A DNA stretch of 64,000 nucleotides from an uncultured Candidatus Pelagibacter sp. (GTDB taxonomy: Bacteria > Pseudomonadota > Alphaproteobacteria > Pelagibacterales > Pelagibacteraceae), in the NCBI RefSeq assembly GCF_943788075.1, contig NZ_CALSOW010000002.1, positions 124,001-188,000 on the forward strand, read 5' to 3'. The notes beneath the pieces were generated by a model. That model was not told where the DNA came from. It did not search any database and was given only the letters and a program-made list of their open reading frames with translations. The stretch's first letter is position 1. Every line of letters starts with the position of its first letter. The translations under genes were made by a program, and so were the position numbers. Below are positions 51,452 through 54,465 of this stretch, piece by piece.

Positions 51452-51934
51452 ATGAACCCATTACTGAACAAAGAGCCAGTTAAAAGAGCTGAAAAAGCAA
51501 TTAAAGCATTTAATTCTAATTTAGAAATTATTTGTTTGGAAAAAACAGCACGTACCGCACAAGATGCTGCTACAGCCTTGGGTTGTAATGTTGGCGCAAT
51601 TGTTAAAAGCTTATTATTTAAAACTGAAGATAATTTCATTCTTTGTTTAGTGTCTGGAGATAAAAGATGCTCCTTAAATAAACTTAAAAATATTTTTAAT
51701 ATTAAAGATGTTTCTATGGCACATCCAAATGAAGTTAAAAAAATTACTGGATATACAATTGGTGGAGTTTCTCCTGTAGGACATTTAAATGAATTAAAAA
51801 TCTATATTGATAATAATTTAGAAAGATTTACAACCATTTTTGCTGCAGCAGGACACCCAAACTGTGTTTTTAAAATAGATTTTAAACAATTAACAATCTT
51901 AACTAACGGTGAAAAAAAAGAGATTACAGAATGA
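51452..51934 (+). CDS. YbaK/EbsC-type aminoacyl-tRNA deacylase
   Basis: AATALGCNVGAIVKSLLFK, SGDKRCSLNKL, GYTIGGVSPVGHL. Confidence 0.9.
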   Translation: MNPLLNKEPVKRAEKAIKAFNSNLEIICLEKTARTAQDAATALGCNVGAIVKSLLFKTEDNFILCLVSGDKRCSLNKLKNIFNIKDVSMAHPNEVKKITGYTIGGVSPVGHLNELKIYIDNNLERFTTIFAAAGHPNCVFKIDFKQLTILTNGEKKEITE

Positions 51935-52817
51935 GACAACCAAAATTAATAGATTATATTTTATTAACAGTTCTAGCTTTGATTTGGGCTTCAGCTTTTT
52001 TTAATATCAAGATAGCTACTTATTCTTTTGGACCTGTAACCATCGCCTTTTTAAGAGTTTTTTTTGGAGCTATTCCAGTTTTGCTTCTTTGCTATTATAA
52101 AAATATAAAAATTGAAGCGTTTTCAAAAGATTGGCATTGGTTTGCGATGATAGGGTTTATTAATTTAGTAGCTCCATTTTTCTTAATAGCATATGGAGTT
52201 AAATCAGTTCAAAGTAATCTAGCAGCAATTTTAATGTCTACTACACCTTTAAGTTCAACAGTATTGGGCATTTTTATACAAAAAATGAAAAGATTTAATT
52301 TAGTAAAAACGATTGGAATTTTAATTGGGTTTTCAGGAATTGTTTTTTTATTTTCTGACAATCTTTTAATTGATGAAAATAATTTTGATCAGCATTATTA
52401 ATATTACTTGGCTCAACTTGTTATGTAATTGGTGGTGTTTTAACTTTAAAGATTAGTAAGAAAAAAAATGAAAATGTAACAGGGTCAATATTGATTTGGG
52501 CAATTATAATTTTAATTCCACTTGTAAGCTTTATAGAGCAACCTTGGCAATCAATTCCAAGAACAGACTCTTTGATTTCAGTCATATACTTGGGAATTGT
52601 TCCAACGGGTGTAGCATGGTTGTTAAGATTTAGAATTTTAAAAAATAATGGTTTAATTTTTCAATCACAAGTTTCTTACTTAATACCAATATTTGGAACT
52701 ATCTTAGGTTATATATTTCTAAAAGAGTTAATAACAATTAAAGTATTAATATCTTTAATCGCAGTTTGTATTGGTATTTATTTTGTAAAAAAAGCTGACA
52801 ATAAAAAAACTATTTAA
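51931..52817 (+). pseudogene. EamA/DMT-family transporter with a frameshift near 52390 (ORFs 51931..52401 and 52491..52817)
   Basis: The second frame is open upstream of 52491 as SALLILLGSTCYVIGGVLTLKISKKKNENVTGS; the two parts form a full 10-TM-type EamA protein. Confidence 0.8.
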
Positions 52818-53715
52818 GTTTTGCCATAGCTTCTATGTGCGAAGGTCTGGTTTCACAGCAACCTCCTAGTATAGTAGCACCATTATCTTTAAATTTTTTT
52901 GCGATTTCACCAATTTTGTCTGGAGTAAGATCGTGTCTTTGGCCTAAGAATTTATTAGGATTTCCACCATCATTTTTAAAATAAGATGATGTGTAGCCAT
53001 CTTTTGGTTTGGTTGTCATAAAGCCATTTAATTTAAATCCAAATGGTACATTTAATTCTCTCATTTCTTGAAGATTTTTTTCATAATTTTCAGGTGATAC
53101 ACAAGAAAGCATTATACCTAGCAATTGATCATTAATAATTCCTTTAATTTCTGAAATTTTTTCTCCACTAGGTAAATTAGTTCCTTCAGATATGTGAATT
53201 CCAATCAAGTATGGTTTTTTAAATTCTTTGATTGCTTCAATTCCACATTTAAATTCTTTAATACTGCTCCACACATCAAAATAAAAAAAATCAACATAAT
53301 CGTTTAATAATTTAGCCTGTTCATTAAAAGTTTTTGTAATTTCATCTTCACTTCTTTCATCTGGTTCATAAGTTAATTCTTGAGGAGGTAATCCGCCAGC
53401 AATTAAAATATTTGGAAATTCTTTTTTAACTTTATTTGCTATTTCACCAGCTTTTATATTTAAATACTCAAATTTATCTTCAATATTATTTTCTCTAAGT
53501 CTTTTTCGTCTTGTAGTAAAAGTAGTAGTAACAATTACTTCAGCTCCCGCTTTTACAAAATCTCTATGAGTATCTTCTAGTAATTGGTGATAATTTTCAT
53601 TTAATATTGCATTAGCACTCCAGAGTGTTCCATTATGTTTCATTCCTCTAGCCAATAGTTCTTGCCCCATACCGCCATCTAATATTCTTGTTTGTTTGAA
53701 AAAATTTAAGTCCAT
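52810..53715 (-). CDS. Homocysteine S-methyltransferase family protein
   Basis: ILDGGMGQELLARGM, TTTFTTRRKRL, C-terminal zinc motif GGCCETRPSHI. Confidence 0.92.
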   Translation of the reverse strand: MDLNFFKQTRILDGGMGQELLARGMKHNGTLWSANAILNENYHQLLEDTHRDFVKAGAEVIVTTTFTTRRKRLRENNIEDKFEYLNIKAGEIANKVKKEFPNILIAGGLPPQELTYEPDERSEDEITKTFNEQAKLLNDYVDFFYFDVWSSIKEFKCGIEAIKEFKKPYLIGIHISEGTNLPSGEKISEIKGIINDQLLGIMLSCVSPENYEKNLQEMRELNVPFGFKLNGFMTTKPKDGYTSSYFKNDGGNPNKFLGQRHDLTPDKIGEIAKKFKDNGATILGGCCETRPSHIEAMAKLK

Positions 53716-53719
53716 TTTA

Positions 53720-53777
53720 TCCTCACTTTTTTAGTGCTTTAGCTTTTTGCTAGGTGCACAATATAGTTCAACTACCT
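53720..53777 (-). promoter_or_regulatory. Probable SAM-V riboswitch (overlaps the ribosome binding region)
   Basis: Reverse strand GGTAGTTGAACTATATTGTGCACCTAGCAAAAAGCTAAAGCACTAAAAAAGTGAGG: AGGT/ACCT stem; loop ACU..UUGUG can pair with CAC-UAAAAAA-GU next to GTGAGGA. Confidence 0.75.
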
Positions 53778-53798
53778 TGCTTATTGATTTTGTGGGAA

Positions 53799-53845
53799 TT
53801 TCCTTTTTAGCAGTTAACGCCCGCAATAGGATCAAATCGGCAAAT
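53799..53845 (-). promoter_or_regulatory. Probable SAM-II riboswitch
   Basis: Reverse strand TTTGCCGATTTGATCCTATTGCGGGCGTTAACTGCTAAAAAGGAAATT matches the SAM-II core elements GAUUU..CC..UAUUGC..GCUAAAAAGG. Confidence 0.8.
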
Positions 53846-53883
53846 AATTTATAAAACTTTAATAAATATTTGTAAACTATTTT

Positions 53884-54465
53884 TTATAAAATAATTTTGG
53901 CATTAAAAGAAAATGATCTACGCTCTCCTTCAATATTAAAAGGATAAGCAGTATGCATTAAATAATTTGGAAAGATTAATAAATCTCTAATTTTTGGCAC
54001 AACATTATAAATACTTTTACTTAGAAATCCTTTTTGACCATTTATGAAATCAATTGTTCCATTTGTTTTAATTTTTTATTTTTAACCATTTTATTATTTG
54101 TCATACCTTTTGGTAATTTTAAATAACCAACACCTGATAAATCTCCTTCATGATAGTGAATAGGGTTATATTCACCTCTTGAATTGACGAACTACCCATA
54201 AATTTAAAATTTTAATTTCTTAATATTTTTAATTTTATCATTGAAAAAATTTATTAATATTTTCTATTAATTCTTTTTCTAAATTTTTCTTAATAAAATT
54301 ATTTGAAATTTTTAATTCATTTTTAATTTGACTAGCTAATTTTGAGCTGTAATCAATTTTTTTTGAATTAGATTTGATATCAAATTCATTATTTAATTTA
54401 TCAGAAAATTTTTTAGAAATTTTAGTTTTTCCAATCGATGGTCCAAAAGGTTTAATGTTTTTCAT
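53884..54465 (-). pseudogene. 2OG-Fe(II) oxygenase-like gene broken by several frameshifts
   Basis: N-terminal ORF 54238..54465; reverse-strand fragments RGEYNPIHYHEGDLSGVGYLKLPKGMTNNKMVKN and IRDLLIFPNYLMHTAYPFNIEGERRSFSFNAKI in different frames. Confidence 0.7.

Follow-up and report, generated by a model that had tools for sequence, protein, structure and literature searches.

SAR11 are the most abundant bacteria of the ocean, with streamlined genomes that hold little non-coding DNA, and SAM-V is their reference methionine switch. The window, a stretch of 64,000 nucleotides from an uncultured Candidatus Pelagibacter sp., carries on its minus strand a homocysteine S-methyltransferase gene, in whose leader the initial annotation had recognized two consecutive pseudoknot-like motifs, a distal SAM-II core and a proximal SAM-V-like element. 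Both motifs are present at that place on the minus strand (53850..53718). The 301-aa methyltransferase matched NCBIfam equivalogs below their cut-offs only; the gene (53715..52810) is called mmuM here because the SAR11 homocysteine methyltransferase gene with a published upstream SAM-V is mmuM (PMC2704228).

An mmuM leader with a predicted SAM-V riboswitch at the ribosome-binding site

The gene and the proximal part of its leader comprise the following features.

52810..53715, minus strand: mmuM-type homocysteine S-methyltransferase gene, 301 aa (Pfam PF02574, 179.6 bits; cut-off, 22)
53720..53724, minus strand: Shine-Dalgarno GAGGA, adjoining the SAM-V 3' strand (from the sequence)
53723..53786, minus strand: SAM-V aptamer (Rfam RF01826, 67.0 bits; gathering threshold, 41)
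53777..53774 and 53755..53752, minus strand: SAM-V P1, AGGT/ACCT (RF01826 match and sequence)
53759..53756 and 53737..53734, minus strand: SAM-V P2, GTGC/GCAC (RF01826 match and sequence)

Across the full 64 kb, SAM-V was the one Rfam family to exceed its threshold. The match ends at 53723, the Shine-Dalgarno occupies 53724..53720, and the ATG lies at 53715, which puts the start codon within about 10 nt of the aptamer. The assignment of a proximal SAM-V to the Shine-Dalgarno region of the methyltransferase gene was therefore borne out by both the RF01826 score and the position of the 3' end. Covariance score and position mark the proximal element as a typical SAM-V riboswitch, with predicted SAM binding. 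It resembles the SAM-V of Ca. Pelagibacter ubique metY, mmuM, and bhmT in score, pseudoknot helices, and adjacency to the Shine-Dalgarno, and nothing notable differs.

Several other observations were made at and around the gene. In the mmuM leaders, the SAM-V 3' strand is self-complementary (CACT-AAAAA-AGTG; 53736..53724, minus strand, in the window) and could fold as a hairpin competing with SAM-V P2 beside the Shine-Dalgarno; the metY leaders differ. Upstream of mmuM (53885..54290, minus strand) lie the remains of an oxygenase-like gene (ending ...YPFNIEGERRSFSFNAKIIL), distributed over two reading frames that contain stops, which represent either a pseudogene or a sequencing error. At four other loci (L037, L040, L041, and L045), the end of the corresponding oxygenase-like gene adjoins mmuM directly, and a leader RNA is absent. 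What looks by eye like a DMT/EamA-type transporter is present as two open reading frames of 156 and 108 aa (51931..52817, plus strand), possibly one gene with a frameshift near 52400-52490.

A SAM-II-like element upstream of SAM-V

The distal element lies about 14 nt from SAM-V in the window (53801 to 53786), somewhat closer than the roughly 20 nt first estimated. Its parts are as follows.

53801..53841, minus strand: distal aptamer, predicted short-P1 SAM-II-like H-type pseudoknot (model R1, 73.9 bits)
53839..53841, minus strand: distal P1 5' strand GCC, pairing with GGC at 53821..53819; also part of the proposed helix X (see below)
53829..53838, minus strand: distal L1, GATTTGATCC, ending in the P2a strand TCC (53831..53829), whose partner is GGA at 53803..53801
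53828..53819, minus strand: distal P2 5' strand TATTGC (53828..53823), junction G (53822), and P1 3' strand GGC (53821..53819)
53806..53818, minus strand: distal L3 GTTAAC (6 nt) and P2 3' strand with (T)GCTAAA

Against the Rfam SAM-II model (RF00521, SAM_alpha), the element scored 11.6 bits, below the gathering threshold of 36 (E value, 4.8), and it scored 16 bits against the SAM-V model. The description of a distal SAM-II core was thus right in kind but fails the family model, and with its score below the cut-off the element is classed as SAM-II-like, outside SAM-II membership. With SAM-II (RF00521, metX) it shares the L1 GAUUU, UAUUGC, and GCUAAA core and the P1/P2/P2a topology, but its P1 and L3 are much shorter. 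RF00521 gave no match in the window's whole genome and is unusable for counting distal elements. A covariance model, R1, was built from 42 relatives' copies; searched on the 64 kb, it gave 73.9 bits (E value, 1.9e-14) for the window copy, which lies within the training set, and 12.1 bits for the next best site.

The pairing pattern of the element was followed through 176 distinct leaders, collected by a search pattern in which GATTT, TATTGC, and GCTAAA were preset. P1 pairs in all 176 (GCC/GGC in 171, ACC/GGU in 3, and GCU/GGC in 2), P2a is UCC/GGA in 167 and ACC/GGU in 5, and the junction pair is G-C in 150, A-U in 11, and U-A in 6 and is unpaired in 9. In the alignment of 42 copies, 99.3% of cells were paired, and sliding the partner reduced this to 65% or less. 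Compensatory changes were found in P1 and P2 in this alignment and in P2a among the 176 leaders. Across leaders, P1 measures 3-4 bp, L3 3-8 nt, and P2a 3 bp, and the lengths of L3 and P1 suit a small H-type pseudoknot. In SAM-II, the bases that contact SAM lie in L1 and P2 (PMC11508383). The corresponding pocket segments, placed on the distal element by core alignment and not by structure, are invariant in the 42 aligned copies (U-rich L1, A-U-U of the P2 5' strand, and U-A-A of the P2 3' strand). Judged by its covariation, the distal element is a structured RNA, an H-type pseudoknot with a SAM-II-type core, and SAM is its predicted ligand.

The distribution of the element was examined from the SAM-V side, by inspecting the upstream sequence of every SAM-V locus in 150 related genomes, 40 of which carry SAM-V, at 57 loci in total. 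The distal motif, approximately 45 nt long and located roughly 9-17 nt 5' of the SAM-V match, was found upstream of 41 of the 57 loci, all from SAR11 relatives, and it precedes both metY (O-acetylhomoserine sulfhydrylase) and mmuM. Its form at these 41 loci is [A/G]C[C/T]-GATTT[A/G][A/T]TCC-(n)-TATTGC-R-GG[C/T]-L3-nGCTAAAnnGGA. At twelve further loci, a canonical SAM-II is followed by a T-run hairpin and then SAM-V, ahead of bhmT where the protein is readable. The remaining four belong to a divergent metY group (L123, L129, L130, and L131; weaker SAM-V scores, 42-70 bits) without the distal motif. Among the 45 SAM-V loci without a canonical SAM-II, the core is thus intact in 41 and the element absent from 4; no half-decayed core was seen among them. 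The invariance of GATTT, TATTGC, and GCTAAA was judged on this SAM-V-anchored set, since the pattern behind the 176 leaders fixes these segments. In a separate observation, L002, which lies in the window's own genome (C1:51231-51295), L031, L119, and L120 carry the already published arrangement, a canonical SAM-II followed by a terminator-like hairpin with a T-run and then SAM-V.

The core pattern occurred in 22 of the 150 relatives and its reversed-pattern control in none of the 150. A scan of approximately 85,000 species genomes returned at least 120 matches, and all 80 among the matches listed were from SAR11. Of 397 genomes in the order, R1 matched 129, almost all of them members of the genus to which the window belongs, and its matches elsewhere in the class were weak; a class-wide model search outside SAR11 likewise gave SAM-II-type matches that were all weak. 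The viral contigs searched gave no matches. On this comparative evidence, the distal element is not a chance match and is selected.

A terminator-free linker complementary to the distal 5' strand

The initial annotation had seen no strong terminator hairpin between the two elements, and this held: no terminator-like site was found in 53650..54000. Its suggestion of distal transcriptional control was not supported: in the published SAR11 tandems, SAM-II always stands ahead of an intrinsic terminator (PMC9481103), which is missing here. In the metY and mmuM leaders, the linker measures 23-33 nt to the SAM-V TTGAAC and contains no terminator-type hairpin. Just 5' of SAM-V P1, however, the linker has a sequence complementary to the distal aptamer's 5' strand (UUGCCGAUU...), and we call the predicted pairing helix X. 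In the window it consists of the following segments.

53777..53788, minus strand: linker strand of helix X (RNAduplex, -6.9 kcal/mol; fixed-register complementarity in relatives)
53788..53784 with 53835..53831, minus strand: helix X part 1, ATCAA with TTGAT
53780..53777 with 53843..53840, minus strand: helix X part 2, GCAA with TTGC, the last A overlapping SAM-V P1

Since helix X uses P1 bases, helix X and distal P1 are mutually exclusive, while distal P2 can nest within helix X. The end of helix X lies 0-2 nt from SAM-V P1, with a one-base overlap in the window. At least six of the seven X pairs form in a fixed register in 91% of metY linkers (58 distinct) and 76% of mmuM linkers (25 distinct), compared with 13.5% and 3.0%, respectively, of dinucleotide-shuffled linkers. 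Sliding the X partner lowered pairing from 89.5% to at most 46%. The linker variants UCGGU, UUGGU, and UUAGU all retain X pairing, and in L046 the P1 variant GCU is matched by an A in the linker; covariation in X is nevertheless restricted by the near-invariance of the 5' strand. The leaders are, moreover, related to one another. Helix X dominates the predicted ligand-free ensemble of metY leaders, with 8.9 expected X pairs; shuffled linkers give 6.4, and the expected number for P1 is 0.02.

Other measures of helix X were less marked. In the window, helix X is weaker, in two interrupted parts, and absent from the minimum-energy fold, and 58 of 500 shuffles in the shuffle control reached the observed score, which is not significant. 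Per-leader shuffle tests were modest (median z, about -1), and we regard the fixed-register test as the informative one. Helix X was not among the pairings chosen by RNAalifold for the whole leader, probably because registers differ between mmuM sub-types and because pseudoknots are invisible to this tool.

Reference copies, solitary distal elements, and the predicted transcript start

In genome G155, R1 matches lie at 1005760..1005808 and 732859..732907, and the next proteins are MetY and MmuM. These matches fall inside the intergenic coordinates published for HTCC1062, 1005679-1005890 (metY) and 732778-732938 (mmuM), which identifies G155 as that strain; both intervals are listed as SAM-V only (PMC2704228, Table 1). 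Rfam at E values up to 5 likewise listed SAM-V and no SAM-II at the HTCC1062 metY and mmuM loci, and the published 53-nt metY crystal construct covers the SAM-V part only (PMC6061858).

The distal element is also found ahead of mmuM with no SAM-V (L038, L206, and L241) or with a decayed SAM-V (L156, L194, and L198), and in L194 helix X is intact, with nine contiguous pairs, despite the decayed SAM-V. Its presence in these six mmuM leaders argues that it is kept for its own sake.

A candidate promoter was located directly upstream of the distal element.

53848..53876, minus strand: predicted promoter, -35 TTTACA (53876..53871), 17-nt spacer, -10 TATAAA (53853..53848)

This promoter would start the transcript on the first base of distal P1 or immediately beside it. 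In 32 of 46 mmuM leaders and 75 of 126 metY leaders, the best -10 ends 6 nt upstream of distal P1, and the -10 score exceeds that of shuffled sequence clearly for mmuM (10.4 versus 9.1) and slightly for metY (9.3 versus 9.0). A generic consensus scan passed over the window promoter because it demands a T at position 6. Transcription from this predicted promoter would make the distal aptamer the 5'-terminal part of the mRNA.

Discussion

The kinds of parts in this leader are already known: SAM-V, SAM-II, and their tandem. The bhmT SAM-II/SAM-V tandem goes back to Poiata et al. 2009, as cited in PMC9481103 and PMC11508383. Like the bhmT leaders, the window leader has a SAM-II-type aptamer and then SAM-V before a SAR11 methionine-synthesis gene. 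Unlike them, it has no terminator, its aptamers stand about 14 nt apart in place of a terminator linker, its distal P1 is of the 3-4-bp kind, its distal element scores below the Rfam cut-off, and the genes served are metY and mmuM instead of bhmT. Of the two marks of a bi-mechanism tandem, it therefore has SAM-V at the ribosome-binding site and lacks a terminator after SAM-II. The leader is best read as a variant SAM-II/SAM-V tandem that does without a terminator. Neither Rfam nor the literature examined, a set outside which Poiata et al. 2009 lies, contained this short-P1 form, terminator-free and linker-coupled, ahead of metY and mmuM; a survey of SAR11 strain HIMB5 mentions an unannotated SAM-II whose location is not given (PMC6429828).

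Probable relatives of the distal element, with the same short P1 and core, occur in sister genera before metY (L299) and metX (L308-L313). The L299 metY leader differs from that of the window in having a terminator before SAM-V, and the metX leaders in lacking SAM-V and carrying a start-codon-proximal hairpin. L299 and L307 (genus g19) combine a short-P1 SAM-II-type aptamer (P2a UCA/UGA), a strong intrinsic terminator, and then SAM-V, an arrangement that is likely an evolutionary intermediate; this order suggests loss of the terminator, with the linker assuming its role. As a separate matter, in L308, L312, and L313 the SAM-II leads into a hairpin close to the initiation codon, and the 5' arm of this hairpin (AAATCG...) also has complementarity to the 5' strand of the aptamer, which looks like a translational three-way switch. 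Extending this arrangement to all sister-genera metX leaders was dropped, as by eye these three alone fit.

For the window leader, we lean, by a little, toward two SAM aptamers in series, in which a terminator-free exchange between distal P1 and helix X is coupled to SAM-V. A minimal SAM-II-type pseudoknot would come first, from the predicted 5' end of the mRNA, and a standard SAM-V second, hiding the Shine-Dalgarno when bound. With SAM, the distal P1 5' strand would be held in P1; without SAM, it would pair with the linker as helix X, inside which P2 can persist. At low SAM, helix X would thus form, hold the linker, and disfavor SAM-V folding, leaving the gene on. Capture of SAM by the distal aptamer during transcription would free the linker, so that SAM-V could fold, bind SAM, and block translation, turning the gene off. 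Distal SAM binding would have to precede synthesis of the linker, because helix X should win over P1 at equilibrium; for the same reason, a distal aptamer that fails to bind during transcription could have no activity. An output on SAM-V is the most economical, since SAM-V P1 starts 0-2 nt after helix X or overlaps it by one base. We infer the direction of this coupling; with helix X and SAM-V P1 overlapping by at most 1-2 nt, it could be weak or opposite in sign, and helix X could instead stack on SAM-V P1 and stabilize SAM-V.

Alternatively, the distal aptamer may act on the mRNA level and not via SAM-V, the exchange of P1 for helix X altering decay, early elongation, or Rho access. A start at distal P1 would suit 5'-end protection, and the six leaders that retain the distal element despite the loss or decay of SAM-V fit such a role. 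Under sulfur limitation, HTCC1062 mmuM and metY mRNAs rise 6.08-fold and 7.14-fold and MetY protein 2.24-fold (PMC5069961), and the mRNA rises are not directly accounted for by a SAM-V that acts on translation alone. Poorly translated mRNAs also decay faster, however, so SAM-V alone could lower mRNA; the start at distal P1 is itself a prediction, and the fixed 0-2-nt spacing between helix X and SAM-V P1 suggests a link to SAM-V. We regard an action apart from SAM-V as a minority prospect, though one of some weight. That the element is instead a relic of an ancestral SAM-II, no longer binding SAM and leaving the work to SAM-V, would agree with the sub-threshold Rfam score, the P1 cut to 3-4 bp, and the likely descent from a terminator-linked SAM-II as in L299. 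This is improbable, given that the core is either intact (41 of 45) or gone (4 of 45), with no half-decayed core seen, and that the element outlives SAM-V in six leaders.

Two further readings appear very improbable. A transcription-terminating SAM-II, as in the bhmT leaders, would have the same core, and both the bhmT leaders of the same genomes and the L299 metY leader show the order of SAM-II-type aptamer, T-run hairpin, and SAM-V; yet 53650..54000 holds no terminator-like site, and the metY and mmuM linkers, just 23-33 nt long, lack a hairpin. Similarly, very high sequence conservation and a promoter-proximal position would be expected of a DNA or protein-binding site, such as that of a regulator near the promoter, but P1, P2a, and the junction pair show compensatory changes, and these, together with the match to the SAM-II core and a predicted location downstream of the start site, make a site of this kind a scarcely credible substitute for an aptamer.

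Returning to the coupled tandem, its extension to the group is more tentative and falls somewhat short of an even bet: most SAR11 metY and mmuM SAM-V elements, including those of HTCC1062, may form the second half of a device with two sensors and no terminator, where a 5' minimal SAM-II would gate SAM-V or mRNA stability via the mutually exclusive linker helix. If the coupled reading is true, the leader would be a same-ligand tandem with a logic undescribed for SAM riboswitches in the literature examined. R1 provides a model of the short-P1 form, which is absent from Rfam. If an unrecognized SAM-II-like aptamer lies upstream of nearly all metY and mmuM copies, studies to date would have addressed an incomplete working unit, and the distal element may explain why metY and mmuM mRNA rises, beyond protein, under sulfur shortage. 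The leader offers a compact test case for how, in a streamlined genome, two aptamers for the same ligand may be coupled with no terminator between them.
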